From: Cupriavidus pauculus
GTDB taxonomy: Bacteria; Pseudomonadota; Gammaproteobacteria; Burkholderiales; Burkholderiaceae
Direction of reading: 5' to 3'
Length of the DNA: 64,000 nt
Assembly: GCF_003854935.1 (NCBI RefSeq)
Contig: NZ_CP033969.1
Coordinates: 2,728,001-2,792,000 of the forward strand
Shown piece after piece: positions 5,070-45,800 of this stretch. The notes under the pieces were generated by a model. The model was given only the letters and a program-made list of their open reading frames with translations. It had not been told where the DNA came from and did no database searches. Position 1 is the first letter of the stretch. Each line of letters opens with the position of its first letter. Both the position numbers and the translations under genes were made by a program.

Positions 5070-5098
5070 CCAACGCAGCACCCCAGAGTTAGGTCGGC

Positions 5099-5201
5099 AT
5101 GGACATCGCGTAACCCATTGAATTCGTAGCACTTTATTGGCCCGCAAGCATGTCCATACCTATGGCTCACCAAAGGCGTCCTTTGTCGTGTCCATGTCCA
5201 T
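5099..5201. repeat. TGTCCAT repeats at left end of the element
   Basis: ATGGACATC at 5099-5107 (inverted orientation), ATGTCCATACC at 5150-5160, TGTCCAT at 5189-5195 and 5195-5201. The 11-base ATGTCCATACC recurs exactly near the right end at 45774-45784. These clustered copies within about 130 bases of the end look like recombinase-binding sites. Confidence 0.6.
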
Positions 5202-5339
5202 GATTGGGCTAGGTGCTGATGATTTCGAGGCGATGCGAATCGCGCTCGTCACGCGATTCGGGATGCGACGCTGGGTTTGAATCAATCTCCGCTGCGCTTG
5301 CAATGGCTACACCCACACTACTTACAGCGATGCACCGCA

Positions 5340-5759
5340 TTACCTTCTCAAGGGCGTCGGCGGAGGCTGCAACTCGTCAACTTGGACTCGCAACAGCGCA
5401 TTCTCTTGCAAGAGTTCGAGCACCGCGCGATGTGCATTCTCCAGCTTTGATTGCGCACTATCTCGCTCCATCGTGAGCCGCTTGACTTTGCTTTCAAGGG
5501 TTTCTCGCTCGCGCCGTCGACGTTGGCGTTCCGCCTTTACCTCCCGAAGTTGGTCATGAATCTCCACCCACGTCTGAATTTCGCGAACCAAAACCGGATA
5601 GCGACTCTTTTTCAGAGCCGAAGGGTCAGCACCAGCCTCCCTAGCCACATTGTTCTGACTAACGACGGTGCCGCGCGGAAGCAGCCGAGGATGACCGTCT
5701 CTCAGACGTTCAAAGGCTTGACGGAATCGTTCTTCTGCGGTTTCACTCGTCGATGACAT
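5340..5759 (-). CDS. TnpC-like small coiled-coil protein of the recombinase set
   Basis: 139 residues. The N-terminal third has a helix-turn-helix-like segment (NNVAREAGADPSALKKS), and residues from about 60 to 125 form a highly charged coiled coil (RQRRRRERETLESKVKRL…). Size, position behind the largest recombinase and HTH-plus-coil layout match TnpC of Tn554 (DUF6262-type), which modulates orientation and frequency of transposition but is not catalytic. Its start overlaps the end of the recombinase C gene by 17 bases, so translation is probably coupled. Confidence 0.7.
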   Translation of the reverse strand: MSSTSETAEERFRQAFERLRDGHPRLLPRGTVVSQNNVAREAGADPSALKKSRYPVLVREIQTWVEIHDQLREVKAERQRRRRERETLESKVKRLTMERDSAQSKLENAHRAVLELLQENALLRVQVDELQPPPTPLRR

Positions 5760-7619
5760 TTAGAAAGTTCCTCAGGCCGTTCGCTTCGATTTCGAGCTTC
5801 CGTACTCTTGGACTGCCCGGCTTAGCTTGTTCAATTTCACGTTCGAGGGCGGCAAGCTGACGCTTCACAGATTCCCGCTTCTCACTATCAAACAATGCCT
5901 CCCTGCAAGGCTTCCTTCCATCGCCTCCTGCACACGGTGACACAGATTCAATCCCTCCGTACTCACAGTCGCCTCTCTTTGCGCACCCTCCAAGTCGAGT
6001 TGCACGAAACGTCACTTCTCCCTTGCGAGCAGCCTTTACAAGAGCGCGGAATTCGTTGACTTTGACGAGCTCTACAATCTCTTGCTTTCGCTGCATGCCT
6101 AAAGGTGAGACATATCGGTCGCTGGTTAGAGCTTGAATCTGCTTTGCAACCACCTCATAACGGGCAGCAATAGTCAGCTGTTCATATTCGCCATTGAGGC
6201 GCATGCGGCTGTAGTTAGCGCCGTAGTATTGAGTTTGAAGCACAGTGAGATGTTTCAGAATCACCTGGATGGAAGTGTTGCTAAGTAGTCCACTCGCGAA
6301 CATATTGACTGCTCCGGTCCTGCGGAGACAGTGCCAAGCTAATGGCCATTTTTCACCAATGGTGAATTTCCCCATTTTTTCCAAGTTTGGAGTAAACATT
6401 TTTGCTATTCTCATATCCTCTTCTGTAATCCTCAGCTCTTCGTCGTCAAACAAGGCTGGACATCCTTTGATAACACTTTGATAGGATTGAGGAACCGGTC
6501 GCACAGCGTACGGTTTGTTGCGCCTTGAGGTTGACCAAGGCTCAAAAGAACCGTGGAATAGGTATGGGTTAGCTTTGTCGTCGTCACTACATGAGGCAGC
6601 TGGGTTTGCTTCAGCGCATCGCACACGCATTCTGGCGACCGTCGAAATCGCCTCTATCGCCACCTCGACGTGGGGACTTGTCGGCCACCACGCGTCGCTA
6701 TCGGGGTCGGTCTTGGTGGTCTCACCTCGAACAATCAAATATCGCCCCAAGACCGAGTTCTCCTCCCACAGCAAGCAATCCGACCTCAATCCGGCCGCCT
6801 CTTCAAGCCGTTGAAACGTAAAGTTCAAAACGTACGCAAGACCCACGTTTTGAACCAACGTAAAATATGTCGACAGAGACCTTACGTCAATGTCCTCGTT
6901 ATCCCCCGAACCTACCCATCGCTTAAGGAGCGGAGCGATGCCATAGTTCTCTGCGGTTGTTTCGAAGCGACCATAGCTTTCTCGCTTAGTCCACTTTCCT
7001 GCTCCTTTTTTCTGCTTCGTAAAAGGAAGGTATGTATCTGATGGACTGACCATTGAGACTGCATTCTCAAGCGAACCGAAGTTGTGTTCGTAGGCCTTTA
7101 CGCAAAATTCAAAGCAGGCCTCTATTTTTCGCTTATGTGCGATAAAATCATCGAGAAATAGTCTTAGTCGCTGAACTTGGTAAACCCATATTCGAGGTGG
7201 TATGTAGGCGGTTTGGACGTGCTCGTCATCTGCGGACTCACTGATATGTCGCGAAAAGTAACGAAGCGCTATCTCATCGAATATAACAAATCCAATCTCT
7301 TCTCGCGCTCTAAAAAGTCGGTCGAGAAGGACAAGGACACGCTTCTTGTGATGTTTGCTCGGGAATAATCCGATGACCTTCGGAAACAATCGAGGGAATT
7401 TGCTTAGCTGGTCCGCCGTAATGCCTTCATGCTCGCAAAGAACGACAATGCGACGCACAGAACTGAACGCGACATCAATTGAGCTCCAACTTTGGCTACC
7501 GCGGCTTCCCCACATTATCCAGGTAGTCGCCAGCCTCAGCAATTGTTCATTTTTTGAGCCCAATGGTGGTACTTTAGGATGGTGCCCTCCAGTAAATTTG
7601 AGTACGTGGAGCGGCCCCT
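5743..7619 (-). pseudogene. Tyrosine recombinase C (TnpB-like), 3' portion
   Basis: Catalytic part of a large tyrosine recombinase cut by the IS at 7620-8924. The candidate first Arg is in FQRLEEAAGL, the H-x-x-R box is WHCLRRTGAVN, and the second His and the Tyr nucleophile lie in KHLTVLQTQYYG. The C-terminus has a cysteine cluster (GGCAKRGDCEYGG, SPCAGGDGRKPC) that may bind metal. An ATG inside the IS (7641) leaves a 632-codon open frame, so a shortened protein could be made. Joined to 8925-9132 without the IS, the gene is 695 codons including stop. Similar in size and Cys-rich tail to TnpB of Tn554. Confidence 0.75.
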
Positions 7620-7664
7620 TGAATCTCAGGACACCCGGCACCTCTTACAATAAGAGGGAGTCTT

Positions 7665-8066
7665 GTGACTAGTTTCAAGCCTAGGCAAATCGTGGAAAGC
7701 ATCGAAGTTTTGACCGAACCTGAGCGGCGGCGGCGCCGTTCAGTCCAAGAAAAGCTCGCCATCATTCAGGAAACGATGGAGCCAGGAGCCACCGTTTCAG
7801 CGGTCGCGCGGCGGCACGGGCTCAATCCCAATCAGTTGTTTGGTTGGCGCAAGCAGTACCAGGACGGAAGCCTGGCTGCCGTGAGCGCTGGCGAAGCTGT
7901 AGTCCCAGCCTCCCAGTTGGCGGCAGCCTTCAAAGAGATCAGGGAGCTGCAGCGACTGCTGGGCAAGAAGACGCAGGAAGCAGAAATCCTGAAAGAAGCC
8001 GTGGAGTACGGTCGCTCAAAAAACTGGATTGCGCGCTCGCCCTTACTGCCCGGGGACGACCAATGA
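7665..8066 (+). CDS. IS3-family (IS2 group) OrfA
   Basis: 133-residue DNA-binding half of the transposase: helix-turn-helix ([20 protein letters not shown]) and a C-terminal leucine-zipper region ([20 protein letters not shown]). In this family OrfA alone binds the ends, and a programmed -1 frameshift produces the OrfAB transposase. Ends in ATGA shared with orfB. Confidence 0.9.
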
Positions 8067-8899
8067 AGACGGTCTGCGATGTCCTCGGCGTGGCGCGCTC
8101 TGCGGTGGCAGCGAAACAGGCCCGTTCGTCGGAATGGCGGGATGGCCGCCGCGCCCGCCAATACGACGACACGGCGCTGGTGACTGAAATCCATGAACTG
8201 GTTGCGGGCCTGCCGACATACGGCTACCGAAGGGTCTGGGCTTTGCTACGGCGCAGTCATGAGCTGAGCGGGGCATCGCCCGTGAACGCCAAGCGTGTTT
8301 ATCGTGTGATGCACGACCACCAGTTGCTGCTTCGCCGGCCTGGGCGACGACTCGATACACGTCGCCATGATGGTCGTGTCGCTGTCGATCGTAGCAATAC
8401 CCGCTGGTGTTCAGACGGCTTTGAATTCCGTTGCGATGATGGTTCGCCGCTACGCGTCACCTTTGCGCTCGATTGCCATGACCGGGAAGCTATCAGTTGG
8501 GCGGCAACCACCGGCGGCCACAGTGGGGACATTGTTCGGGATGTCATGCTGGCGGCCGTCGAGCAGCGCTTTGGCGCTGTGCAAACTCTGCAAACCATCG
8601 AATGGCTCTCGGATAACGGCTCGGCGTACATCGACCATCGTACGCGCAGCTTCGCGCGGGAGTTGGGCCTGGAGCCACTGACCACGCCGGTGCGTTCCCC
8701 GCAGAGCAACGGTATGGCCGAATCCTTCGTCAAGACCATGAAGCGCGATTACATCGCGTTCATGAACAAGCCTGACGTACCAACTGCCCTCTCTGAGCTA
8801 ACGGTCGCGTTCGAGCAATACAATGACTGGCATCCGCATAAAGCGTTGAAATATCGTTCGCCTCGGGAGTTCCGGCGAGCGGCAACATCATCAACTTAA
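8063..8899 (+). CDS. IS3-family (IS2 group) OrfB, DDE transposase domain
   Basis: 278-residue catalytic half. HTH_21 segment near the start ([14 protein letters not shown]), then the rve DDE core: [13 protein letters not shown] (first Asp), WLSDNGSAY (second Asp) and [19 protein letters not shown] (Glu). The WCSDGFE wording is typical of the IS2 group. Open frame is intact, so the IS could still be active. Confidence 0.9.
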
Positions 8900-8924
8900 C
8901 GGTGTCCGGGTGTCCTGAGTTACA

Positions 8925-9132
8925 GGGTCAACTCCAGTACGAAGCTTCTTCCTACTTGTACAGAGTAGTCCCAACTCGGCTCGCGCCATCGTGATACAGG
9001 TATCCCATTCAAGTCTACGCTGACTACCCAATCGTCCGGTGGTGGCCAGTGCGGTGGACGATAGCAAGCCCAGTCGGGCGAGATAGGGTCGCCAGATATT
9101 TTCAAAGCAAGTTGGGTGACGAGCATATTCAT
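8925..9132 (-). pseudogene. Tyrosine recombinase C, N-terminal portion
   Basis: First 69 codons of recombinase C (MNMLVTQLALKISGDPIS … FVLELT), separated from the rest by the IS. The start ATG overlaps the stop of recombinase B in ATGA (9129-9132), showing the original translational coupling within the trio. Confidence 0.75.
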
Positions 9133-10817
9133 TCCATCCCCTCCAATTCAAGCAGCACCTGCCGCCAGTCCGGGTGATAATCACCCTCATTGATACGCTC
9201 TTGTGCTTCGTGCACCCAACTCCGCCTCGCATCGTTTGACCGTTCAAACCACCTCAACTTCTCCAGAATTCTGTCTCGAGCTAACTTAGACGGGGGTTCA
9301 GGCTCATCCGCGTGGGGCAATCTCGCCTTGCTAAGCTCAATTAGCTTTAGTTGTCCGAACGATGCTAGCGACCAAACGTACTCAAACGAATCCACATCCC
9401 GATGGTTTACGCACCATAGGCATCCAGACGCCTTATCGCAGTCCGGTCGCGGCGCCCCTCTTGGAATGCTCTCAATCTCTTTAGGTTTGCCCGTACAACC
9501 ACCTGGAGCCACTGCCTGCGTACGGGCCGAATGTGGGTCGTTTTTCGACCAAAACTTTGCCGACTCAACGATGGCCGTCTGAACGCTTGGCCGTTTGTAG
9601 ACGCTAAGCAAGGTCCCCTTCAAATGCTGCGCCATTTCTGCGGTTAGCTCCGGATTGGCAGTCTCACGAAGCAGCCAGTTGATTCGAGTGTTCCGCAATA
9701 TGAGTGGCGAGACAAAGGCAATTCCCTGCTCCCTGCAGATTTTCCGTAGACGGTGTCCGCTGGAACTCACCCCTAGCCGGCTTCCCTTCATCCCAATAAA
9801 AGGGAAAAGAAGCTTTGAACGAGGAAAAATTTTTCTTCGCCACTCGAGATAGCGCTCAAAATGAGGTCTGTACTCCGCGAATATTTCAAATAAGACGTCA
9901 CCCCCGCGCCGAGCTTTATATTCCTTCACCTGATAACCGTTAAGGTAGCTACTGTATGAGAACCGACGTAGCTTGAGGTCAACGGCTGGAGTCAAATTCA
10001 TCCCCGTCTGGCCGATGAACATGTGTAGTTCAGCTTCTATCCTCAAGTTTGCAAGAGGGTATCGCTCCCCTAGCCTTGTCTCCTGCGCAATCTCGCGGAG
10101 ACCTGTGTAGTGACCCATTCTTTTTATCGACTTCCCGCTCCTCAGCGCAATTTTGACAGGTAGGGGAGCCTTTAGAACGGTCTGAAGAGGCAGACCATCG
10201 CAAATATCCTGTAGCAAGTGCCCAAAAGCAAAAGTGTCGCTCAGATTCTGCTTTTCAGCGCGGATGCCAACTGCGGATTTTCGATGACCTTTCCGCTCCA
10301 GTCGCGTTAGGTCCATTGCGGAGGTATGCCGGTCGAAAATCTTATCCAGCAAATTTCCCACTGCTGAGGCATATCCATATGCCGTACCCATCGAGATGCG
10401 ATAGCTATCGGAGTTGCGTATGCCCGGTGGAGGCCGTCTTCCATTGCGTGTCCTGTACAGCAACAAATCAGCCCAAGCGCAGAAGGTTCCGGTAACCGCC
10501 TCCATGGTCAAAGGATGACGCTTGCTCTCGGCAAATCTGAAAAAATATCTCAAGTTCAGAATCTGCTTGTCAGCGTATTCTCTCGAGCCTCCTCCCTCCA
10601 GTTCTAAGTTGATTTGCTCGTGTAATGCACGTACTAGCTCCAAGCGTTCAAGTTTCGGCTTTCCAAGCGCTCCACTGGCTATCATCTCCTCGACACAGTC
10701 AGTCCGCGCCTGCGCCCCACCTTCATAGAGGAGGATATGCAGGTTCCATGGTGTTTCCTGGTCTCCAAAATGGACACTGGGAAAGCTAAAATCAAATAGC
10801 ACTTCATCGATTCGCAT
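9129..10817 (-). CDS. Tyrosine recombinase B, atypical active site
   Basis: 562-residue phage-integrase-like protein. The C-terminal catalytic fold is recognisable: LILRNTRINWLLRE (R375 region of the H-x-x-R box, but with N where His would be), H398 in MAQHLKG, and Y407 in LLSVYKRP. The position of the first catalytic Arg (TGxR) reads IGQTGMNLTPA, with Met273 in place of Arg. It may therefore be a partner that needs another subunit for catalysis. Start lies 12 bases after the end of recombinase A and the end overlaps recombinase C, so the three form one operon. Middle gene of the trio; exact family not certain. Confidence 0.75.
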   Translation of the reverse strand: MRIDEVLFDFSFPSVHFGDQETPWNLHILLYEGGAQARTDCVEEMIASGALGKPKLERLELVRALHEQINLELEGGGSREYADKQILNLRYFFRFAESKRHPLTMEAVTGTFCAWADLLLYRTRNGRRPPPGIRNSDSYRISMGTAYGYASAVGNLLDKIFDRHTSAMDLTRLERKGHRKSAVGIRAEKQNLSDTFAFGHLLQDICDGLPLQTVLKAPLPVKIALRSGKSIKRMGHYTGLREIAQETRLGERYPLANLRIEAELHMFIGQTGMNLTPAVDLKLRRFSYSSYLNGYQVKEYKARRGGDVLFEIFAEYRPHFERYLEWRRKIFPRSKLLFPFIGMKGSRLGVSSSGHRLRKICREQGIAFVSPLILRNTRINWLLRETANPELTAEMAQHLKGTLLSVYKRPSVQTAIVESAKFWSKNDPHSARTQAVAPGGCTGKPKEIESIPRGAPRPDCDKASGCLWCVNHRDVDSFEYVWSLASFGQLKLIELSKARLPHADEPEPPSKLARDRILEKLRWFERSNDARRSWVHEAQERINEGDYHPDWRQVLLELEGME

Positions 10818-10828
10818 AGACTAGGCCG

Positions 10829-12097
10829 TTACGCTTGAACGTGGTTCCAATTCCTACGTCGGATTCCGGTAAATGCTGCGCTGAATGCAGCTGAGACCTC
10901 CTGTTTCACCCGGGTTTTCTCGCGGAACTTCACGTATCGAAGGCTTGTCTGCTCGTGCTTATGAAGCATGGCATCTCGAAGGACACCAACTGCTTCAGTC
11001 GTGCTTGCGCCGCTCTTGAGCAGGATGTCAAGAAACCATGTGCCAAACGTTGCCCGCGACTGATGAAATTTAAATTGCTCCATGAAGCGCATTTCGGCCA
11101 TGACCGCACGTGCTCTCATATCAAGGACGAGTCGGTCTACGGTTGCGACGGTGTATGGCCGACCGCTCCGCGTCAGGAAAAGTAAATTCTTATGCTTCGG
11201 AAGCGCCCTTGTTTCCCTCATCAAACGCTTCGTCGACGTCGCATACCGCTTCAGGTCATCCAAAACCACTTTGGGCACCCAGAGATTGCCTGAGACCGAG
11301 CCCTTCGTTGCTATCCCTGTCCCCGGCCCAACGGCAAGCAGGAATACGCCAGGCATGAACGGGTCTTCTCGCGCAATTTCAAGCCCAGTAACGGTCAAAG
11401 TGACGTTCGTACCGACTCGTGCACCGGTGAAGAACCCGTGGCAAAGCATTAGATGCAGCTCCTCAGTTTCATGCTCTGCGGTGTACCTGAGCAGCCGATT
11501 CATGTCCTCGGAAAGAAGGGGTAAAAGACCGTCCTCGAGTTGGTCGCCCACTACTCTGCGATAGGGAATTGACAGGTCGCTACTCATCCTAAGCACGGCT
11601 CGCCTGAAACCACACGAATCAGCAATCGGAATAGCGATGTGGCGGTCATGCCACATTGGGACAGTATTGCCGACAAGATTGTGCAAGTTTGCGAATCGAT
11701 AGAAGCGGATAACTGCATTCATGCAATTCGATACCGTACTACCCCGTAGCCTGCCGGCTTTGCGCTCATCGACCAGATGTTTTCTGAATATTCGGAGTAC
11801 CTGTTCTGCCTGGCGTACAGGGAAGTGCCGCCAATCAAGTCCCTTGCTCTCAAGCCAGTTCGCGTATCGATACAGGTGTTTCATTTCGCGCCTGACGGTT
11901 TCTGCGTCGACCGCAGACGAGGCTGTCCTTTCCGTGCTCCAGGCGTTTGCCTCATCCCAAGGACTGTGGTCTGCCCAAAAGATTTGTGGTAGCCGCTCAA
12001 CAGGCTTCTTATCAGGCGACTTCGTCCAGACCAGCCGACCACACTCGTCAAGCGTCGCCTCCTGAAATTCGTGTTGGATGCAATCAAGCCACGCCAT
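10829..12097 (-). CDS. Tyrosine recombinase A, first of the trio
   Basis: 422-residue site-specific recombinase with a full catalytic set: R227 (FFTGARVGT), H345-Q-S-R348, a second His in LHKHEQTS (379 or 381) and the Tyr388 nucleophile (SLRYVKF). An N-terminal SAM-like core-binding region (about 60-150) precedes it. First gene of the minus-strand recombinase operon; likely the TnpA-like main strand-exchange enzyme. The promoter must lie in the long AT-rich stretch to its right. Confidence 0.85.
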   Translation of the reverse strand: MAWLDCIQHEFQEATLDECGRLVWTKSPDKKPVERLPQIFWADHSPWDEANAWSTERTASSAVDAETVRREMKHLYRYANWLESKGLDWRHFPVRQAEQVLRIFRKHLVDERKAGRLRGSTVSNCMNAVIRFYRFANLHNLVGNTVPMWHDRHIAIPIADSCGFRRAVLRMSSDLSIPYRRVVGDQLEDGLLPLLSEDMNRLLRYTAEHETEELHLMLCHGFFTGARVGTNVTLTVTGLEIAREDPFMPGVFLLAVGPGTGIATKGSVSGNLWVPKVVLDDLKRYATSTKRLMRETRALPKHKNLLFLTRSGRPYTVATVDRLVLDMRARAVMAEMRFMEQFKFHQSRATFGTWFLDILLKSGASTTEAVGVLRDAMLHKHEQTSLRYVKFREKTRVKQEVSAAFSAAFTGIRRRNWNHVQA

Positions 12098-13491: not shown

Positions 13492-13619
13492 GCGATGCCC
13501 GCTCTCGTTGGGGCTTTATGGCCCACCCAGTCTTTAATGGCAGTTCTAAAGTGAGTTGGGCTTCGTCGTCAGAAGCCATGTCGCACGGCTAGTGATATGC
13601 ACTTCTTAGGAGAGTCTCG

Positions 13620-16876: not shown

Positions 16877-18011
16877 GGGCAAAAGCTTCATAAGGTTTCA
16901 GAAAGCGGTCCGCGGAGAAGGCCTGGAAATCGGGAGGTATCGCACCGCCCGTGAGCCAGCTGCCAAGGCGCAGGGAGTGCGCAGCCGCCAATGTGACCCC
17001 GCTGTGGCAACTGACGTTGAACGCGCCAGGATGCGCTTCAGACTCTTGATAGATTGGGAAGCCGTCTGGTGTCATCACACGAAGTGCGCCCCAGGCGCGT
17101 ACGAGCCGAACGTCACGTAGCAGCGGGAAAGCCCGCACGCCGCGAGCAGCAATTTCGGAGATGACGTTGGTCGTCACGCCGTTGTTGAAGCCCACGTCTT
17201 CCAACGAGTCACCCAACTGAACCGTTCCTTCATTCGTTTGCCGGACGGTCACCGTCGGATGATGAAGGAACGGCGCGACGCGCTCGCTTATCAAGACCTG
17301 GCCGCGTATGGGGACGACGGGGGCGTTAAGCCCAACCATCGGCGCGAGGTTTTTGTTTCCTAAGCCGGCCGCCAGGATGACGCGCGCCGTCGTCCATCGA
17401 CCACGTTTTCCATGCACGACGAATCCACCGGCCTGCGGCTCGATGCGTTGCACGCGCTCAGAGTTGACCAAATCCCCGTTACGATTGGCAAACCCTCGGC
17501 GCAAGGCAAGCAGAAGCTTGAGAGGATTGACATGGCCGTCCATCGGCGAATAGGTCGCTCCGGCGACAGACTTTCCAACACCCGGAAGCCGCGCAGCAAG
17601 TTCAGCCGGCTGCAAGACTTCGAAGGGATAGTCGCCATCTGACTCGTCAGCAATCTGCGAAAGCTGGCTTGCGCGCTCCTCGAGCTCTTCGTCGGAGAAG
17701 CACAAATCGAAGCCTCCCTGCTGAAGTAGTTGTGTGTCCACTTCAGTCTCTGCGAGCAACGTAGCGGCAAAAGACGGCCAGAGCGCTGCGGATGCGCGTG
17801 TCCATGAGGCGTAGCTAGGCCTTCCGACGCCTTTACCTTGGACCCAAACCAAGCCGAAGTTGCCAACGGAGGCGCCGAAGGCATCATCCCCTTCATCGAT
17901 TACAAGGACTTTTGCGCCTTCTCGCGCAATTCCGAAAGCAACGGCAGACCCAACCAGCCCACCACCGATGACGACTGTGTCGTAGAACTTTGATATTTCA
18001 CGTGTTGTCAT
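16866..18011 (-). CDS. Opine/D-imino-acid dehydrogenase beta subunit (OoxB/HcnC-like)
   Basis: 381-residue D-amino-acid-oxidase (DAO) superfamily flavoprotein: N-terminal YDTVVIGGGLVGSAVAFGIA, then VLVIDEGDDAFGASVGNFGL, and a C-terminal GVTLAAAHSLRLGSWL. In the three-subunit dehydrogenases this is the substrate-oxidising subunit that cleaves the C-N bond of an opine or oxidises a D-imino acid. First gene of the minus-strand operon (beta, gamma, alpha, ridA), divergent from the LysR regulator at 18311. The LysR neighbour and the amino acid transporter favour an arginine- or ornithine-derived opine; D-hydroxyproline or another cyclic D-amino acid is the main alternative. Confidence 0.85.
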   Translation of the reverse strand: MTTREISKFYDTVVIGGGLVGSAVAFGIAREGAKVLVIDEGDDAFGASVGNFGLVWVQGKGVGRPSYASWTRASAALWPSFAATLLAETEVDTQLLQQGGFDLCFSDEELEERASQLSQIADESDGDYPFEVLQPAELAARLPGVGKSVAGATYSPMDGHVNPLKLLLALRRGFANRNGDLVNSERVQRIEPQAGGFVVHGKRGRWTTARVILAAGLGNKNLAPMVGLNAPVVPIRGQVLISERVAPFLHHPTVTVRQTNEGTVQLGDSLEDVGFNNGVTTNVISEIAARGVRAFPLLRDVRLVRAWGALRVMTPDGFPIYQESEAHPGAFNVSCHSGVTLAAAHSLRLGSWLTGGAIPPDFQAFSADRFLKPYEAFAHVD

Positions 18012-20074: not shown

Positions 20075-20842
20075 TTAGTTCTGGTCGAGTTCGGGCTCCA
20101 GGACGCTGGGTTTTGGGGATGCCTTTCTGAGGGATTCACCGGTGAGCGTGATCCGGTGATGACGCTGCATGAGACGGTCGAGCATTGCGTCGGCGATGGT
20201 CTCGTCGCCGATCCATCCATGCCAGTGCTCAATCGGTAACTGGCTGGTGATGATGGTCGCCTTTCCCGCCGAGCGGTCATCGATCATTTCGAGCAGATCG
20301 TTTCGGACCATCGCGTCGAGGGGAGCCATTCCCCAATCGTCCAGCAGGAGCACGTCAACGCGGGCGACCTGCAGCAGCCATTTTGTGAAGCCGCCATTGC
20401 CGTGCAGAACGCGAAGCTCCTCGCCAAGTCGCGGCACGCGCAGATACAAGGCCGAATGCCCGCGCCGGCAAGCGTATTGGGCCAGGGCGCAAGCGAGCCA
20501 CGATTTCCCAGCGCCGGTTGGACCGCTGATGAGCAGGCTGTAGCCGGCTTCGACCCAGTCACCGAGCGCGAGACTCGTGAGTGAGCGCGGATCGACGCCA
20601 CGACCAGCGCGCGTGTCGAGATCTTCAATGGCGGCTTGCGGATACTTGAGGCGCGCCTGCTTGAGCAATCGGGTACGACGGCGATCATCACGCCAGCTGG
20701 CTTCCCGGTCGACCAGCAGTGACAGGCGTTCCTCGAAGCTCAGGCTGGCCGCACCGGGCTGCGTCAGTTGTTCTTCCAGGCCGTCAGCGAAACCGTCCAG
20801 CTTCAGGGTGCGCAGTTGCGTCAGTGTCTGTTGCATCATCAT
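20075..20842 (-). CDS. istB: IS21-family helper ATPase IstB
   Basis: 255-residue AAA+ (DnaA/DnaC-like) ATPase. Walker A is LLISGPTGAGKSWLACAL and Walker B VDVLLLDDWGMAPL, followed by sensor-type stretch TIITSQLPIEHWHGWIGD. IstB assembles on target DNA and activates the IstA transposase. Starts 12 bases after istA. Confidence 0.95.
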   Translation of the reverse strand: MMMQQTLTQLRTLKLDGFADGLEEQLTQPGAASLSFEERLSLLVDREASWRDDRRRTRLLKQARLKYPQAAIEDLDTRAGRGVDPRSLTSLALGDWVEAGYSLLISGPTGAGKSWLACALAQYACRRGHSALYLRVPRLGEELRVLHGNGGFTKWLLQVARVDVLLLDDWGMAPLDAMVRNDLLEMIDDRSAGKATIITSQLPIEHWHGWIGDETIADAMLDRLMQRHHRITLTGESLRKASPKPSVLEPELDQN

Positions 20843-20854
20843 GGTGGGTCTTCT

Positions 20855-22378
20855 TTATTGGTAGTAGCTGGGGCCGCGTACATGCGCGTGGCTCGGGCTG
20901 ATCCAGTCGGCAGGCGTTGCCACTGCAGCGCGGTCACGGTTGTTGATCAGGATGTCGCGCACGTGGCGGTAACGGTGCACGCCCAGCTCCAGTGCTAGCG
21001 CACAGGCGGCTTCGAGACGTTCGCGGCCATAGCGACGTGAGAGCGAGAGCAATCCGAGGCACGCCCGATAGCCGTGTTCCGGATGACGTTGCTCCTGCAG
21101 CAGCCGGGTAACAAGCACGCCGGTTGCCGCGCCGATCTGCTGTCCCCAATGAATCAGCCGCTGCGGCGTCCATTCCAGATGAGCGCGGTGCGCCGCCGGC
21201 ATGTGCTCGACGACGGTGGTGTAGCCGCCTGCGCGCTCGTTGCGTGCGTGGCTGGCGACACGGCGACCGCGATGCAGCAGTTCGACAGCGCCCGCCGTGA
21301 TGCGCGCATCGAGCTTGAGACCGACCAGCGCGTGCGGCACGCTGTAGCGGTGTTTGTTGATCTCGACGTGATAGTCGATGTGAACCGTCACTGTCTTGAA
21401 GCGCGCGAGCTCATAAGGCTGTGCCGGCAACGGCTGCAGTGCCGGCGCGTCCAGCTGGGCGAATGCGCTGGCGCGACATCCCGGCAGCTTCTGGAACGGC
21501 CTCTCATTCAGGTTCTTGAGCAGCGGGCGGATCGCCTCATTGACCGAGTGGACCGACTCAAACCGGTGATGACGCAGGCGCGCCATGATCCAGCGTTCGA
21601 CGACCTGGACCGCAACCTCTACCTTCGGTTTGTCCTGCGGACGATATACGCGTGCAGGAAGGAATGACGTGCCGTAGTGACGTGCAAAGTCCAGCACGGT
21701 GTCGCCGGCGCGAGGTTCATAGCGATCGGGATCGGCAATCATCGCGCGCGGGTTATCCGGCACGATCAACTGCGGCACGCCGCCATAGAAGGTCAGCGCG
21801 CGACCAATGCCGCCCAGCCAGTCCTCCATCGTTTCGGCCGGCGTCGCACAGGCGAATGTGTAGCTCGATGCGCCCATGGCCGCCACGAAGATGTGCGCGC
21901 GGCGTCCAGTCGTCAGCGGCAACGTGGGGCCGGCGAAGTCGACAAACAGCTTCTCGCCGGCGCGGTGAATCTGACGCATCGAGCGCTTCAGGCGTTTCGT
22001 GAACGCCTTGTAGTGCTCGCAGAACTGCGTATAGCGGTAGGTCTGCCGGTCCGCGAACTCGGCCTGGTACTCCTCCCACAGCAACGTCAGCGTCATGCCC
22101 TTGCGACGCAGCTCCTGATGGATGCGTCCGTAGTCGGGCTGGGCGTAGCCTGCCGGCCCGGTGGGTTTGCCGAGAAGCCGCCGCTCGAGCTCGCCTTCAT
22201 CCATATCGCAGGCGCTTGCCCAGTCCAACCCGGCGGCACCGGCTAGTCCGATGTACTTCGTGACCACGCCCTTGGATATGCCCAGTGATGCGGCGATCCG
22301 ATCGTGCGAGAAGCCGCCGTCGAATTTAAGTCGTAAAACGTCCTTGATCATGCGCATGTTCATCCGGTGCGCGGGCAT
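20855..22378 (-). CDS. istA: IS21-family transposase IstA
   Basis: 507-residue transposase. N-terminal helix-turn-helix (HDRIAASLGISKGVVTKYI), DDE integrase core with KLFVDFAGPTLPL (Asp), VPDNPRAMI (Asp) and the Glu in the KPKVEVAVQVVERW segment, then a C-terminal mu-like beta domain. Intact open frame. Confidence 0.95.
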   Translation of the reverse strand: MPAHRMNMRMIKDVLRLKFDGGFSHDRIAASLGISKGVVTKYIGLAGAAGLDWASACDMDEGELERRLLGKPTGPAGYAQPDYGRIHQELRRKGMTLTLLWEEYQAEFADRQTYRYTQFCEHYKAFTKRLKRSMRQIHRAGEKLFVDFAGPTLPLTTGRRAHIFVAAMGASSYTFACATPAETMEDWLGGIGRALTFYGGVPQLIVPDNPRAMIADPDRYEPRAGDTVLDFARHYGTSFLPARVYRPQDKPKVEVAVQVVERWIMARLRHHRFESVHSVNEAIRPLLKNLNERPFQKLPGCRASAFAQLDAPALQPLPAQPYELARFKTVTVHIDYHVEINKHRYSVPHALVGLKLDARITAGAVELLHRGRRVASHARNERAGGYTTVVEHMPAAHRAHLEWTPQRLIHWGQQIGAATGVLVTRLLQEQRHPEHGYRACLGLLSLSRRYGRERLEAACALALELGVHRYRHVRDILINNRDRAAVATPADWISPSHAHVRGPSYYQ

Positions 22379-35805: not shown

Positions 35806-35840
35806 GTTGTATCAATATGGTAAGACATCTGCATACAAGT
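35806..35840. promoter_or_regulatory. Dyad operator between gntR and GMC dehydrogenase
   Basis: TTGTATC at 35807-35813, TAAGACAT at 35821-35828, ATACAAGT at 35833-35840: the same three blocks with the same spacing as at 33157-33189. Lies about 55 bases before the GMC start and 87 bases before gntR. Confidence 0.65.
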
Positions 35841-35893
35841 TGCAAATGCAAGGCGCTCCCCAAAGCGCGATAGAAATCAGGAGACACGGCAGC

Positions 35894-37573: not shown

Positions 37574-37675
37574 CGAGCCTTGCCAACTTGTAGACAAAGC
37601 GTCGCAACGGCGACGCTTCACCGAGCAGAACGCGTACATCGATGCGCGACAACATTTTCATGAAGTGGAGACATC

Positions 37676-39010: not shown

Positions 39011-39161
39011 TCGTCGCCCGGTTATCAAGTCTGCTCCTCCGCAAATCCCCACGAGCCACGAAGGCGAGGACACGGCTTTCCGGCCGATGTCCTCGTCGTT
39101 CGCGTGAGCGACCGTATCGGCAGGCTCATTTCAAAAACGGCGTTACTCTCCAGGAGCATCT

Positions 39162-40592: not shown

Positions 40593-40704
40593 ATGTCATG
40601 CTGAACACGGTCGCGCGAGCATTTCGACGGCCTTAAAACGCGCAGGTTCGAAGGGGGCTGCGCCTTCATCCAGGGGTAGCCTTAAGTAGGTTCGAAGGGT
40701 CTCT

Positions 40705-41400
40705 ATGCGAGTTCTGATTACCGACGGCGACAATGAAATTGCAGAAGTCGTGCGAGAAGCACTTCGGCTGTCGGGCTACGCGGTCGACAGAGTCGCTACC
40801 GGAAATCTCGCTGACACTGCGTTGCGAGCCAAATCCTTCGACCTGCTCATACTGGACTTGGATGTCGAAGGCATAAGCGGAGCACAGGTTTTGTCAAGAC
40901 TGCGCTGTCGCGAGTCAAAGCTGCCCGTGCTCGCCCTCAGCGTGGTCGATACTATCGAGCGTAGAGTCGACGCACTGGACCGCGGCGCAGACGCCTTCAT
41001 GGCAAAGCCGTTCTCAATCCCGGAGTTGCTTGCACGTGTTCGTGCGTTAATCAGGCGAGGAGCAAGGTGTCCGGCCGAAGAGGTGACGGTCGGCAATCTA
41101 TCGTTCGACCTCATCGGCCGTACAGCGACGGTCCGTCGACAGATTTTGGATTTGACGTCGCGAGAGATAGAGGTTCTCGAAATATTCGCCACGCGGGCCG
41201 GTCGCGTGGTAACAAAGGACCAACTCGCGTCTGAACTTTCCCGACATGGAGAGGACGTAACCACAAATGCCATCGAAGTCTATGTCCATCGATTGCGCCG
41301 AAAACTTAAGACCAGTGGCGCCGCAATTACGACAGAAAAAGGCTTGGGCTACTGTCTTCAACACGGGCGACCAACTCCTTTCAGCCCTCGCGCTACGTGA
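40705..41400 (+). CDS. Orphan OmpR-type response regulator
   Basis: 231 residues. Receiver domain 1-115: acidic D7/D9, phosphoacceptor D51 (LLILDLDVEG), S79 switch, K101 (FMAKPF). DNA-binding winged helix from about 125 (VGNLSFDLIGRTATVRRQIL, DLTSREIEVLEIF, TNAIEVYVHRLRRKL, KGLGYCLQ). Like QseB/TctD-type regulators. No histidine kinase lies next to it within the element, so it either uses a distant kinase or is a broken pair. Confidence 0.9.
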   Translation: MRVLITDGDNEIAEVVREALRLSGYAVDRVATGNLADTALRAKSFDLLILDLDVEGISGAQVLSRLRCRESKLPVLALSVVDTIERRVDALDRGADAFMAKPFSIPELLARVRALIRRGARCPAEEVTVGNLSFDLIGRTATVRRQILDLTSREIEVLEIFATRAGRVVTKDQLASELSRHGEDVTTNAIEVYVHRLRRKLKTSGAAITTEKGLGYCLQHGRPTPFSPRAT

Positions 41401-41601
41401 GTGAGAGACCAGAGAGACGGCGTTGTCACGGCACGATGATTCTTATGTTCAAGTTCGTCGGCATGACTTGACTTCACACACGCCTTCGAGCGTTGATACG
41501 AGTCCACCTGGAGCCGGCAGAAATATGGGTGGCGTATGTCACCGACTGACCGAGCGCGCGCTTTCGGGCGAGATGCTGTGCTTGTTTTCTCGGCGCGTTC
41601 G

Positions 41602-42015
41602 CTAGTCATCGGTCGCACCCTGTAGCAGTTGCCGCGTGCGCTTCATGACCCAAGCCACCTCACGTTGGGAGAAGTCCCATTCGCCAGCGTCGACCTTCAA
41701 TCTCACGCCTCTCTCGGCGCGAGTCAACGCCACGTCTGACGACAGACCGGAGGTAGTAATCTTTCGCGATGCGTACGCGGCTAGCTGACTAGCAAGGTCC
41801 TCGCACGCGTCATAGCGTACCCACCGTTGTTCTTCAGTGAGACTGCTTTGATAGCGTCCGTCGACTTCGCGAACGAGAAGTTTTGGTTGAACCCCGGTTA
41901 CAGAACCGGGGTCCGGTTGCCTCGGAAAATCATCAGGCACATGTCGGTCTGTCATCTCGCTCTCTCTAACTGTGGCAGCTGCCGGGTCGGTGTGACCATC
42001 CGACACGCCTCGCAT
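41602..42015 (-). CDS. Conserved hypothetical protein
   Basis: 137 residues; a shorter start at MTDRHVP is possible. Contains DPGSVTGVQPKLLVREVDGR, RYDACEDLASQLAAYASRK and a C-terminal GEWDFSQREVAWVMKRTRQLL. The pattern is that of a small cytoplasmic protein found in Burkholderiaceae accessory regions; no function known to me. It overlaps nothing and has its own spacing, so a single-gene unit is likely. Confidence 0.55.
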   Translation of the reverse strand: MRGVSDGHTDPAAATVRESEMTDRHVPDDFPRQPDPGSVTGVQPKLLVREVDGRYQSSLTEEQRWVRYDACEDLASQLAAYASRKITTSGLSSDVALTRAERGVRLKVDAGEWDFSQREVAWVMKRTRQLLQGATDD

Positions 42016-42357
42016 GTCGTCGCCCTGCGCGCGAGTTCGCTCGGCGGAGCCCGAACCGAGTTGCCAAGGTGTGGCCGCACTACGCGGTTGAATGTGATTT
42101 ACGAAGACTCACAACTGAGCGTCAAGCATTTTGAGCGTCGCAGCGGCGGCGCCCTCTAAACCGACTCCATGCGACGGTTTCGTGCTCGGTTCCCGAAGGT
42201 TGATTCGAATGAGCCTCTGCGACGAGAACCGTTCGCTGAAGCGTCGTACCGTCGGTAACGCTCTGCCGGCGCCGACTTCCACAACAACAAGCTTCGACAC
42301 CGCTTCTCACCTTCCATATGGGACACATCGGTTCTCGAACTAGATTGCAACGGCTGG
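42016..42357. other. No gene recognised
   Basis: Short open frames on both strands here lack coding character; nothing can be assigned. Confidence 0.4.
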
Positions 42358-42783
42358 CTATACACGTAGGTACCACTCACCAGAGCCGTAAATCCTGTTC
42401 CGTGTATCAATGTCACGCTTGTAGCCGAGTTCTTTCACGAAGCCCAGCGACTGCAGCACTTCGCGTGCGCGCATGAGGTCCTGCCTATCTGCCCAGTCTC
42501 GCGTGTAGACACAGATGACGTGCCCATCGCGACCAATGCTGCGCAGAGCGGTGGATACCTTGGCGCACATTAACTGGTTGCTCTCGATAGCGCCGCTGAT
42601 TTTGTTCCATTCTTGGTCCACGTCGGCGGGGCTCACAAAGATGCACCATTTCCCAGATGCATCGGTAGATGCGAAGTCGTTGTAGCGCGGGGACTTCTTG
42701 TAGTGCCAGTTGCAACTCATGTCCTCAGACGGCTTGTCCGATTTTCTGAACAATCGTTCTTCCACACCGATTCCTTCCTTCAT
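42358..42783 (-). CDS. Putative phosphothreonine-lyase-domain protein
   Basis: 141 residues: NWHYKKSPRYNDFASTDASG, KWCIFVSPADVDQEWNKISG, AKVSTALRS, HVICVYTRDWADRQDLM, ELGYKRDIDTRNRIYGSG. This ordering (SGKW, D-x-x-W-x-x-I, AKVST, ICVYT, YK-D-T) matches small proteins annotated as putative phosphothreonine lyase domain (BLES03/DUF1917-like). Their activity is not established in bacteria. Single gene in the accessory block. Confidence 0.6.
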   Translation of the reverse strand: MKEGIGVEERLFRKSDKPSEDMSCNWHYKKSPRYNDFASTDASGKWCIFVSPADVDQEWNKISGAIESNQLMCAKVSTALRSIGRDGHVICVYTRDWADRQDLMRAREVLQSLGFVKELGYKRDIDTRNRIYGSGEWYLRV

Positions 42784-42926
42784 CGAAGCCTCCTCGCGTC
42801 CGGCGCTACTCCATCGCGGCGGCAGTTGCCTGAACCGACTATCGTACGGCCTCCATATTTATCGCCCGCCCACCTGAACATTATCATCTTGCGATTCAGA
42901 CACCACTACGCTTTATTAGATTCAGC

Positions 42927-43169
42927 TTATTCGTCAGCTGCCGAAGCTTTGTAGGCTTTTACCGCAGCATCCTGATGCGCCTGATAAGCTAGCACTGATG
43001 CCTTCGTTAGAAACTGGTTGTTCCGAGTTTTATGGTGAAGCTTGAGTTTGCCTTGCTTGAGCAGCTTCACGACATGTGGACGGGAAACGAATAGCAGCTT
43101 CGCGGCTTCGGCGGTGGACATGAAATCGTCGGCGTCAGGCGGCGGTGGAATCTTCGCGTTCGTCGACAT
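42927..43169 (-). CDS. Excisionase-like / MerR-type small DNA-binding protein
   Basis: 80 residues with a winged-helix excisionase motif: MSTAEAAKLLFVSRPHVVKL followed by LKQGKLKLHHKTRNNQFL. Such proteins act either as recombination directionality factors or as antitoxins. No obvious toxin is adjacent, and its place in the recombinase-borne element makes a role in excision possible. Confidence 0.75.
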   Translation of the reverse strand: MSTNAKIPPPPDADDFMSTAEAAKLLFVSRPHVVKLLKQGKLKLHHKTRNNQFLTKASVLAYQAHQDAAVKAYKASAADE

Positions 43170-43256
43170 TTTGGGTCACCCTTTCTCAAAGCAACCGGCC
43201 TCACGCGCCTAAGTTAATCCAGGCTAGCTCACAGGCACTGCGGCGCTACGTTCGTT

Positions 43257-43457
43257 TCAATCCGCTTTCCGCCGCGCGGCGCGACACTGTTCCAACTCCT
43301 TGCTGAGCTCTTCTATTCGCGCTTGCATGCCTGCCGCTCGTTTCAGTAGCTGTCCGACTTCATACCAGTAGGCATATCCTAGGTCCCCGTCCTCTAAGCC
43401 CAATTCGTGGAACTTGCGAAGCGCAGTCTCAAGGTCGATACGGCTATCAGAGTTCAT
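43257..43457 (-). CDS. Small hypothetical protein
   Basis: About 66 residues from an internal start (MNSDSRIDLETALRKFHELG, … LLKRAAGMQARIEELSKELE); a longer frame to 43559 exists but its first part is not convincing. Helical, with a short coiled coil at the end. Not recognised. Confidence 0.4.
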   Translation of the reverse strand: MNSDSRIDLETALRKFHELGLEDGDLGYAYWYEVGQLLKRAAGMQARIEELSKELEQCRAARRKAD

Positions 43458-43637
43458 CTCTTCTTCCGCTGATTCTGAGGGGCGGTTGGCGCGCTCCGCG
43501 GTAGGCAAGCGTCGAAACGAAACTCCGACTAGGCTGAGAGCGAACCCGACTGCCGGCACGACCAGAAGTGTCGGAGTCGTTGAAAGTGGAGTTCAAAAGT
43601 TCTTTCATGGCCAGCAGAGGTACGAAATATTGGTCAC

Positions 43638-44327
43638 CTATGGAAACAGTCGGGCATATTGTTCGGCGGCGGTCTTGGCTTCTTGCACTACCGGCTTAAC
43701 ATCCCCCGCGGATAGTCGTTGAAGCGGTGTAGCCCCACCCAACGCCTCAATCGCGGTCGTGAAGAAGTCGAACATAGACCATGGGTCGACTTTGCCGAGA
43801 CCACGTATGACCTTTCTGAAGTCGTCGCGAAAAATCGTCGTCGAGAGGAAGAACGCTGGGTAAAAGGCTTCGGGACCAAAGTAGACGCGAAATACTCGCT
43901 GCGATTCAACAAGCTTAGCCAGTTTCTTTTCCGTGAGGCCTGCCGAGATGCGGAAGTCATGCATTCGGAGCACTTTGCCTTGAAGCACGAGAGGGTAGCG
44001 CTCCGGGTTCGCATTGTGGTACCTACGGGAGCGCCTATTTTCTAGCGCCTGCTTCGACTCAGCTCTAACGCGCTCGCGAAGCCTATCTTCCTCCTCGCAA
44101 AGCGCGGGGAAATCGATGCCGTAGACCGTGGCCTGGCCAACGGCCTTGCAAAGATGATTCTTGAAGAGCCGACCAAGCGCCGCATCAGGGATTTCAAGCA
44201 GTGTTTCAGCGACCTTCGGGTCGAACAAGATGGCTGCAATCACGGCGCGATGGAAGATGTGGTCCACCCATTCCTCATCGAGCGATGTTTCGTTTTCTGT
44301 AGCACGCGTAGAGCGCGGCATGGTCAT
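43638..44327 (-). CDS. Hypothetical protein, ParS-like C-terminus
   Basis: 229 residues, not assigned to a family with confidence. N-terminal half is helical and charged; the C-terminus (FFTTAIEALGGATPLQRLSA, GDVKPVVQEAKTAAEQY) recalls the toxin-binding tail of Xre/MbcA/ParS antitoxins (LGG-x-TPLE-x-L-x-x-G). The rest of the antitoxin fold is not evident, and no RES toxin is seen next to it. Confidence 0.5.
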   Translation of the reverse strand: MTMPRSTRATENETSLDEEWVDHIFHRAVIAAILFDPKVAETLLEIPDAALGRLFKNHLCKAVGQATVYGIDFPALCEEEDRLRERVRAESKQALENRRSRRYHNANPERYPLVLQGKVLRMHDFRISAGLTEKKLAKLVESQRVFRVYFGPEAFYPAFFLSTTIFRDDFRKVIRGLGKVDPWSMFDFFTTAIEALGGATPLQRLSAGDVKPVVQEAKTAAEQYARLFP

Positions 44328-44435
44328 TCCTTACTTAAGCGAGAGCGTTTGAGCCCGCATGGTCTCCAGACTGCGCCGGCCTTCACGGATAAGCGCGTTC
44401 TGCAGGCCGCCGCAGATTTCGAATCTCGCACGTGC

Positions 44436-44888
44436 TCACCCGTTTTCGAAGCTCAATACTTTCACCAGCCGTGGTCTCTCAACACGCGTACCGAATGCGA
44501 CAGGCGAACACCGTCTCGTTTCTCCGTCGGCGGTCGAATACCAGTAGTTCACGACACCCTTATCGTTTCCCTCTGCCTCCTGCCACAACCCGCTTACTCG
44601 GCAGAGCGTGACGGAAGCGTCATCCTCACTACGAGCCAACAAGTGAACCGAAAAGCTAACATCGCCAAGTTGCAGTACCAATTGAATCAGCGCTTCGGCA
44701 CCGTCCACCACCCAACCATCCGGGGCCGCGCAGTCCGCACCGCGAGAGGAGGCCACGACAAAGAAGTTCGGCGTGAGGTCCGTCCATCCAACGCAGCGCC
44801 ACGCAAGAAGTGGCTGCATGAGCCTCTTCTTTATGGGATGTAGCTCTTCCCAACTGCTGTCAGTGAATAGCATGACACCGGCCAACAA
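44436..44888 (-). CDS. Hypothetical protein
   Basis: 150 residues, or 145 from an internal Met (MLFTDSSWEEL). Mixed alpha/beta composition, including LMQPLLAWRCVGWTDL and FSVHLLARSEDDASVTLCRV. No family recognised and no partner gene evident. Confidence 0.4.
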   Translation of the reverse strand: MLAGVMLFTDSSWEELHPIKKRLMQPLLAWRCVGWTDLTPNFFVVASSRGADCAAPDGWVVDGAEALIQLVLQLGDVSFSVHLLARSEDDASVTLCRVSGLWQEAEGNDKGVVNYWYSTADGETRRCSPVAFGTRVERPRLVKVLSFENG

Positions 44889-45002
44889 GAGTTTTAAAGG
44901 TTGAGTTTGGCATTAGCTGCATTTTTTGAGGGACGTATTTGTTGGAGTGACCTCAGCAAAGCTGAGAGTCGGTCCGTCGACGTTGGTCGGTAGCATCATC
45001 GA

Positions 45003-45054
45003 TTCTACGAATTACGTAGAGATTCAACAAGCGATTTCTACGATATTCGTAGAA
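45003..45054. promoter_or_regulatory. Two palindromic operators at the xre start
   Basis: TTCTACG-N5-CGTAGAG at 45003-45021 and the perfect TTCTACGA-TAT-TCGTAGAA at 45036-45054, centres 33 bases apart (about three helical turns). The second touches the A of the xre start codon. Strong sign of autoregulation. Confidence 0.8.
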
Positions 45055-45389
45055 TGAAAAAACAGCAGCCAGCGTCTCTATTTGGCCGCCGGCTTCGGAC
45101 CGCCCGGCGCGACGAGGATATTCCACAAGACAAACTGGGCGTCCAAATTGGACTTGATGAACATACAGCGAGCGCGCGAATTAGCCGTTACGAAACAGGC
45201 GTGCACGAACCGCCGTTTGAAATCGCTTTGAAGTTGGCGAAGGTGCTGCGTGTGCCAGCGGCATATTTTTATTGCGAAGACGAAGACCTCGCAGAAATAG
45301 TGCTGGCGTGGAGTCGCATATCAAATTCCGAGCGTAAGCGCCTTAGGCAACTGGTTGCAACAATGCTCCCCGAAGGTCTCATCAAATAG
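45054..45389 (+). CDS. XRE family transcriptional regulator
   Basis: 111 residues. Cro/C1 helix-turn-helix in residues 8-68 (LFGRRLRTARRDEDIPQDKL, ARISRYETGVHEPPFEIALK, LRVPAAYFYCED) and a helical tail. No ribosome-binding site is possible right before the start because the operator overlaps it, so the transcript may be leaderless or the gene weakly translated. Possible repressor of element genes. Confidence 0.85.
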   Translation: MKKQQPASLFGRRLRTARRDEDIPQDKLGVQIGLDEHTASARISRYETGVHEPPFEIALKLAKVLRVPAAYFYCEDEDLAEIVLAWSRISNSERKRLRQLVATMLPEGLIK

Positions 45390-45456
45390 CACCACAGAAA
45401 ACGAGCTGGCTCCGGAACGCTCTCATGTGCCCCGCGACTCGGGCTCAGCGCTTCCC

Positions 45457-45530
45457 CGTGTGCACAACTTCGCTGCCCACACCACAAGGGTGTGGACAGC
45501 CGCCTATCGGCGGTTCCGAAGTTGCACACA
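45457..45530. repeat. Branched inverted repeat (three-way junction)
   Basis: Outer arms GTGTGCACAACTTCG (45457-45471) and CGAAGTTGCACACAC (45516-45530) pair at 13 of 15 positions. They enclose two perfect hairpins: CCACACC-ACAA-GGGTGTGG (45476-45494) and CCGCC-TATC-GGCGG (45499-45512). Could be a folded RNA, a terminator-like element or a recombination/binding site. Confidence 0.65.
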
Positions 45531-45743
45531 CTCGAACGCCTGACGCGCCGGCGATGCCGGCTTGCCCTAGTTTCATTTTTTGAAAGTGAAAACGTCGACA
45601 CCTGACGGTGTTCGGGGTCAGATGCGCGTCGTTCGCTTGTAGCCGGGGCAATAACGCTCATTGCTGGGGGAGCGATTTCTCGCCGTCTCAGGGCGGATAG
45701 ACAAAAGGAATGTGGGGAAGTTGACTAGGTGACCACGATGGCG

Positions 45744-45784
45744 GATGTCCATGGGCATCAAGTTCTGAGGTGGATGTCCATACC
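45744..45784. repeat. TGTCCAT repeats at right end of the element
   Basis: GATGTCCAT at 45744-45752 and 45773-45781, 29 bases apart. ATGTCCATACC (45774-45784) is identical to the left-end copy at 5150-5160, and the outermost copy is the inverse of ATGGACATC at 5099-5107. Confidence 0.6.
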
Positions 45785-45800
45785 CCCTTATGCGCGGGTG

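Follow-up and report, generated by a model that had tools for sequence, protein, structure and literature searches.

The described mobile elements closest to the one analysed here are the SEs and the GInts (ginABCD islands), whose published accounts are drawn on here as excerpts. As excerpted, the SE paper places the core genes at one end of the element, with intA beside the terminus and cargo beyond srap, and does not list this layout with a terminal intA among its three acceptance criteria (PMC10214605). It describes the 6-bp sequence carried by an SE (the carried hexamer) as a copy of the intA-side flank of the donor site and, in the same excerpts, states that no SEs were found in Betaproteobacteria (PMC10214605); SE-6283-like elements are described as carrying bcp (PMC10214605; PMC9345347). 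GInts are described as having four genes, 6-nt staggered cuts, a median length of 34.9 kb and members in Betaproteobacteria, and a synthetic GInt gave a circle that kept its own spacer in 50% of recovered clones (PMC5385486). Here we describe a 40,728-bp element in a 64,000-nucleotide stretch of the Cupriavidus pauculus genome (contig NZ_CP033969.1, positions 2,728,001 to 2,792,000; hereafter the window). The element very probably belongs to the SE kind of mobile DNA, with the mechanism proposed below and a branch that targets the gene ychF.

The element interrupts a lysR gene, the 5′ part of which (4850–5072, + strand) and the 3′ part of which, up to the stop codon (45801–46513, + strand), lie 40.7 kb apart in the same orientation. 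Domain searches of the two halves gave HTH_1 at 4850–5089 (E = 2e-18) and LysR_substrate at 45770–46510 (E = 2e-22). That these are halves of one gene, as a sequence-only reading of the window had claimed, is confirmed by the uninterrupted homologues that it suggested seeking: six of the 61 genomes of the genus (G007, G018, G036, G042, G045 and G047) match both halves. The set includes the window's own genome and holds one genome per species in the collection. The search reported 100% identity in these six over all 310 residues of the protein obtained by joining the halves at the tetranucleotide GGTG.

Window position 5072 directly joins 45801 in all six genomes. The letters were read in five (G007, L031, L033, L034 and L035), contiguity in L032 being known from the alignment, and in these five the surrounding sequence is CGTCGGTGCCATTACGGAAC. 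The empty site is GGTGCCATTACGG, that is, GGTGCCA^TTACGG. Because the window reads CGTCGGTGCCA+ACGCAGCACC at the left junction and TATGCGCGGGTG+TTACGGAAC at the right, the element occupies 5073–45800 (+ strand), of which 1,335 bp are a later insertion. The bases through 5072, CCA included, are target, and the target hexamer TTACGG (45801–45806, + strand) is retained on the right. The element was thus inserted between GGTGCCA and TTACGG as a single unit, with nothing duplicated or lost.

The sequence-only reading had placed the right end correctly, at 45800, and the left end 3 bp too early, at 5070 instead of 5073; the empty sites therefore show a junction other than the one predicted, by 3 bp only. 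Its join at GGTG does yield an open, in-phase frame (310 aa plus stop) but drops three bases, that is, one codon: the native product, translated from one copy (L035), has 311 aa and reads ..SVGAITEL.., against ..SVGVTEL.. for the join. The GGTG common to both ends (GGTG in the target, GGGTG at the element end) is a chance match and marks no crossover, and crossover at a 'GGTG core' is ruled out by the empty-site sequences. The same reading had held that no long target duplication was made, and none is seen at the empty sites; insertion by tyrosine recombinases without such a duplication is supported by the recombinase genes and by the reciprocal empty sites described next.

The same element, which the earlier reading had proposed looking for at other sites, is present in G007. 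That copy is inverted, measures 39,393 bp and has one mismatch to the window's (at 17810) outside the window-only 1,335-bp insertion. It lies at window position 3806^3807, 1.27 kb from the lysR site and six bases past the stop of an open reading frame (ORF; 3813–4427) of the Asp/Glu/hydantoin racemase family (PF01177); the identification of this neighbour as aspA was not borne out. As lysR is intact in G007 and the second site (site B; hexamer 3801–3806, ACACAA on the − strand) is intact in the window, the two genomes supply reciprocal empty sites. Read on the element-matching strand, site B is CACCT^ACACAA, and the G007 junctions are CACCT+ACGCAG on the left and GCGGGTG+ACACAA on the right. 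No base was duplicated or lost in either insertion. In both, ACGCAG stands at the srap-side end although the targets differ, and the target's own hexamer stands at the intA-side end. The window's genome has one copy of intB.

Four minus-strand genes run toward the left end of the element. The first, intA (10829–12097), encodes a 422-aa tyrosine recombinase with a PHROGs integrase match (E = 1e-11); tfp (9129–10817) encodes a 562-aa recombinase-like protein. The large tyrosine recombinase gene intB has its main part at 5743–7606 and its 5′ part at about 8942–9128, beyond an insertion sequence (IS), and is an intact 684-aa frame in G007. The fourth, a srap-like gene of 139 aa (5340–5759) that ends 267 bp from the left end, was assigned from its position and size together with a weak profile match. 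Alignments show R227, K265, H345, R348, H379 and Y388 of IntA to be invariant (13 rows) and a full catalytic set to be conserved in IntB (R278, K310, H437, R440, H464 and Y472/473; 12 rows). In Tfp, Asn274 replaces the first catalytic Arg in 13 of 13 rows and Arg375 the box II His, with Tyr407 kept.

IntB is about 40% identical to plasmid relatives. The closest named protein found to the tfp product, at 42.5% identity, is WP_034039553.1, given as the Tfp of SE-PaeBT2436 in the excerpted SE paper (PMC10214605). Family profiles were run against just the eight proteins of the archetypes SE-6945 and SE-6283, among which the namesakes were the two best matches for each of the four profiles; scores were 101.6 and 64.3 bits for IntA and 39.8 and 36.6 bits for IntB, respectively. 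Searching with Tfp led to 12 named loci, of which 11 have the same four genes in the same order; in the twelfth (Caldimonas) the DNA ends within intB. These loci come from Paraburkholderia, Cupriavidus neocaledonicus, Dechloromonas, Noviherbaspirillum, Rhodoferax, Massilia, Caldimonas and one further member of the Burkholderiales, all of which we take to be Betaproteobacteria. Counting the window's own genome, 3 of the 399 genomes in a sample of the order have Tfp relatives at E ≤ 1e-20, and 6 of the 61 genus genomes have them at E ≤ 1e-5. Comparison of the sequences with solved structures gave only chance-like matches. That these are Gamma-mobile-trio (GMT) recombinases was also considered and dropped, an NCBIfam scan having shown no such match.

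The carried hexamer ACGCAG (5073–5078, + strand), defined by the window and G007 junctions, lies outside the left terminal repeat, C (5079–5106, + strand; CACCCCAGAGTTAGGTCGGCATGGACAT). On the right, the terminal repeat R1 (45774–45800, − strand; CACCCGCGCATAAGGGGGTATGGACAT read inwards) joins the target without a spacer, and a subterminal repeat, R2, follows it inwards (45745–45773, − strand; (C)CACCTCAGAACTTGATGCCCATGGACAT). None of 2,000 shuffles was as good as C against R1 or R2 in either the window or P. rhynchosiae; the corresponding numbers were 1 (R1) and 0 (R2) of 2,000 for the copy in G387 and 6 (R1) and 44 (R2) for the remnant in G047 described below. Joined in silico, the ends form two imperfect inverted repeats around a 6-bp spacer. 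The sequence CTATGGACATT occurs just ahead of intA in the SE-PaeBT2436-type element too. We also considered a 6-bp overlap on the right, with CGGGTG as a donor footprint, and rejected it: CGGGTG does not vary among the 8 right ends, and the spacer is placed on the left by the CACCC repeats.

Separately, a palindromic stretch lies 230–350 bp inside the right end (45451–45568) and folds, as DNA, far better than shuffles (z = −4.9). Rfam gave no match there. The G047 remnant has a copy of it, 88% identical, inside its right end, and others occur in G059 and G051.

The right-end pattern matched 11 of 399 family genomes, and 7 of these matches are real ends, the window and G007 included; the four excluded (G135, G103, G131 and G091) lack GCGGGTG after the pattern. 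Among the 11 genomes of the named loci it matched one, P. rhynchosiae. All eight real right ends finish in GCGGGTG at the target, and six of them, that is, all except those of the window and G007, lie at the 3′ end of a gene that we take, from its 3′ coding end, to be ychF. A ninth right end, belonging to a seventh copy at ychF, comes from G023 (C. neocaledonicus STM6070, of the same genus as the window), a genome that the pattern did not pick up. Of the 61 genus genomes, 54 have an uninterrupted ychF site, among them the window's own and G007; the seven without an uninterrupted match include G023 and G047, which carry copies there. Read on from the ychF stretch, R1 gives LFTRT-stop in three copies and would give LFTRA-stop for the window's R1. 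R1 thus reads as ychF-type last codons and a stop, and would therefore resupply the end of the gene. Among the papers that a literature search brought up, none was seen to report ychF as a target of such elements.

Left ends at ychF were found in G387, G023, G047, G301 and P. rhynchosiae; G076, one of five matches, was left out of this count because its match is not followed by the repeat. Copies located at both ends measure 40,728 bp (window), 39,393 bp (G007), 35,310 bp (G387), 85,138 bp (P. rhynchosiae), 28,856 bp (G023) and 4,070 bp (G047). Three others are not counted as fully located: G187 and G265 have no left end in the stretches read, and the two ends in G301 are on different contigs. 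The G047 copy (L064, 7270–11339) is a 4.07-kb remnant at ychF that retains its two ends, srap and the 3′ part of intB. Further quartets of the genes occur in G024, G039 and G051, outside the end counts.

Integrases typically favour the 3′ end of a housekeeping gene and resupply that end, and this speaks for ordinary integration in the manner of an integrative and conjugative element (ICE) or phage by one integrase, the other recombinases being passengers. We consider this highly improbable. The four genes are kept in order across 11 of the 12 named loci, the end repeats are inverted rather than direct copies, and no conjugation or phage structural genes were found among the 35 element ORFs, a subset of the total, that were given to Pfam.

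All five full-length copies share one polarity of the ends: R1, with the target hexamer, stands upstream of intA, and C, with the carried hexamer, stands downstream of srap. Four of these copies (window, G007, G387 and P. rhynchosiae) have srap beside the left end and carry their cargo between intA and the right end, which are 33.7 kb apart in the window. G023 has its cargo beyond srap, and its intA starts 526 bp from the right end. Cargo is therefore upstream of intA in four of the five full-length copies for which both ends were located, and two of those four are the window element. The SE polarity is kept and only the cargo side has changed.

Both insertion sites lie in a transposon of 75.2 kb, which begins 63.4 kb left of the window, supplies the host DNA at 1–5072 and 45801–52523 and has its right end at 52523; with the inserted element it spans G000:C2 2,664,558–2,780,523 in the window's genome. 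Its ends are AGTC..GACT, and the 5-bp duplications are GGGAA in the window's genome, AGCAG in G018 and AGTGT in G007, the three genomes in which the left end was reached. At that end lie four genes, the third with an AAA domain and the fourth with a sub-threshold TniQ match (E = 2e-4), which together suggest that the transposon is Tn7-like; Pfam gave no match for the first two. Near-identical copies occur in seven genus genomes, with at least 99.85% identity to the window's in five further genomes over the 61–75 kb compared (G042 was compared over 20 kb).

One alternative to an SE is a GInt moving by cut-and-paste with 6-nt staggered cuts, a copy of which hopped 1.27 kb within the putative Tn7-like transposon. 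GInts resemble the element in gene number, staggered cuts, length and occurrence in Betaproteobacteria, precise excision would leave perfect empty sites such as those seen, half of the recovered synthetic-GInt clones held a circle with its own spacer, and the two sites are just 1.27 kb apart. Against this, the gene order (catalytic, altered, large catalytic, small) is that of SEs, whereas GInts have the altered protein third, and the closest named protein found is an SE Tfp. Six single-nucleotide polymorphisms (SNPs) in the transposon, moreover, group G007 with the element-free G036 against the window, so that a single arrival followed by a hop would need several precise losses unless the transposon recombined. 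This grouping favours two separate insertions, with the qualification that the SNPs lie at least 12 kb from the sites, where recombination within the transposon could have produced it. We regard the GInt explanation as unlikely.

The near identity and closeness of the two copies might also point to rearrangement (inversions) or misassembly, instead of two insertions, as the source of the two arrangements. However, the orientation of the 1.27 kb between the sites is unchanged in G007, which rules out a simple inversion and makes any single inversion insufficient; at each of the two sites, five other transposon copies run on without a break, and the junctions obey one rule at three kinds of target. 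This explanation is scarcely credible.

Several further features of the transposon were recorded. Its cargo looks catabolic by eye. G036 has a separate 3.5-kb insertion at 4454 of its copy. The last transposon gene, 50 bp from the right end, is a 411-aa integrase-like ORF (51241–52473, − strand; phrog_1, E = 1e-11). At 46558–50628 lies a gene for a 1,356-aa protein with a TPR-GreAB-C-PIN-type PIN domain, a weak GreA/GreB C-terminal match and no PADLOC match. The sequence TTAACATAA occurs within about 50 bp beyond the right end (52523) in the window, G036, G047 and G007, whose immediate flanks differ.

We propose that the element moves as an SE would. Together with the small Srap and the catalytically altered Tfp, IntA and IntB would join both ends into a circle, at the joint of which R1 and C would face each other across the 6-bp spacer (GGGTG-ACGCAG-CACCC). 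Recombination of the circle with a target would then place the target hexamer beside R1 and the spacer beside C. The usual target of this branch would be the 3′ end of ychF, where R1 may resupply the last codons and stop; the window and G007 copies would represent secondary sites inside the apparently Tn7-like transposon, which could ferry copies of the element between genomes. The IS in intB probably froze the window copy.

Some observations count against assignment to the SEs. The circle and the movement are deduced from sequence. None of the four proteins scored above threshold in Pfam or NCBIfam, the Tfp profile finds hardly any similarity in the Tfp proteins of the two SE archetypes (2.7 and 1.3 bits; E = 0.014 and 0.039), the Srap profile matches SE-6945 and SE-6283 weakly (9.2 and 5.2 bits), and structure models were of low to middling confidence (pLDDT 65 and 73). 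In a cruder test of the ends, 13 of 2,000 pairs of segments drawn at random from the element had a local score at least as high as that of the window's two ends. Cargo is on the side unusual for SEs in four of the five full-length copies. Random targeting does not explain two insertions 1.27 kb apart in one transposon. Finally, the SE rule that the carried hexamer equals the donor flank is not borne out by the five ychF copies: none carries the ychF hexamer AACARR. The carried hexamers are ACGCAG (window and G007), AGCAGC (G387 and G023), AGCAAC (P. rhynchosiae), AGAAGC (G301) and AGCGTC (G047), most of which resemble one another.

Under the SE rule, the window and G007 copies would not derive directly from each other, because TTACGG or ACACAA would then remain. 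Either all donors were sites other than ychF, or the branch keeps its own hexamer; the latter is simpler but unproven. We therefore suggest, tentatively and with some doubt, that the ychF branch moves like an SE but retains its end hexamer through every move, the circle taking the srap-side hexamer. If so, the strand bias by which SEs are defined would be reversed, the spacer would be an inherited part slowly tuned to the main target, donor sites might be restored exactly and the branch could load cargo on either side of its recombinase genes.

The cargo of the window copy, upstream of intA (12413–45400), was annotated from Pfam and NCBIfam matches. It includes a three-subunit amine oxidase-like set, an amino-acid ABC transporter, AcnX (cis-3-hydroxyproline dehydratase-like), ClcB, GMC and aldehyde dehydrogenases, regulators and an IS21. 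Within 12413–41400, where NCBIfam matches were mostly below cut-offs, two sets look catabolic: one comprises the amine oxidase-like proteins, the transporter and AcnX, and the other the GMC/aldehyde dehydrogenase and a phosphonopyruvate/sulfopyruvate decarboxylase-like protein. The IS21-type istAB pair (20075–22378) is also in G007. Of eight proteins submitted to PADLOC, the sole match was a helix-turn-helix (HTH) protein at 45054–45386. The IS3-family insertion that breaks the window's intB (7607–8941, + strand; Pfam rve and HTH_21) is 1,335 bp long with one copy of its 5-bp AGTAC duplication and is absent from G007; the window copy is probably immobile as a result.

Two natural insertions with reciprocal empty sites amount to a base-exact record of integration obtained without experiment, and bear on strand choice and on copy-out versus cut-out in four-protein tyrosine-recombinase elements. 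The element would extend SEs to Betaproteobacteria, with a housekeeping gene as target there, and is an example of an SE-type element lodged in a probable Tn7-like transposon that has near-identical copies in seven genus genomes. According to the SE paper's own statement, as excerpted (PMC10214605), and our literature search, SEs in Betaproteobacteria are new to print.

Among described systems, RITs share a row of recombinase genes, and their archetype is from Cupriavidus, but the excerpts give them three recombinases of 315–410 aa, each having the catalytic Tyr, along with terminal repeats of 34 bp and no fourth small gene (via PMC10214605), whereas the proteins here have 422, 562 and 684 aa (IntB as in G007), a fourth gene is present and one recombinase lacks the first Arg. 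Tn554 likewise combines an ordinary and a large recombinase with a small third protein and a 6-bp footprint; it differs, by the same account, in having three genes, tnpABC, with no counterpart of the tfp found here (via PMC10214605). GInts, compared by description, share four essential genes, 6-nt staggered cuts, large cargo and Betaproteobacterial members, and differ in that the altered protein is third in ginABCD and second here, and in having the operon at the 5′ end with cargo after ginD.

The likeness to SEs is broader. The order and orientation intA-tfp-intB-srap are the same (12097–5340 in the window; likewise at 11 of the 12 named loci), as is the catalytic pattern, IntA and IntB having R-H-R-Y and Tfp lacking it. 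Homology is strong to the Tfp of SE-PaeBT2436 and extends, for IntA and IntB, to SE-6945 and SE-6283. Both kinds keep a split attB in attL and attR, have imperfect inverted repeats and a 6-bp spacer (the joint here being deduced), make no target duplication and place the target hexamer upstream of intA and the carried one downstream of srap. Both also show a site preference, with part of the target gene copied in the element. In the SE-PaeBT2436-type element, intA starts less than 400 bp from umuD, and the DNA between them resembles what we take to be a broken umuC. The SE layout differs from that of the window, in which cargo is upstream of intA, but is that of G023. The carried hexamer is a donor footprint in SEs and apparently inherited here. 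A strand-biased circle and the lack of an empty donor site are further marks of SEs. Last, SE hosts are gammaproteobacterial, whereas those here are Cupriavidus, Paraburkholderia, Massilia, Noviherbaspirillum and others, a difference of host range and not of mechanism.

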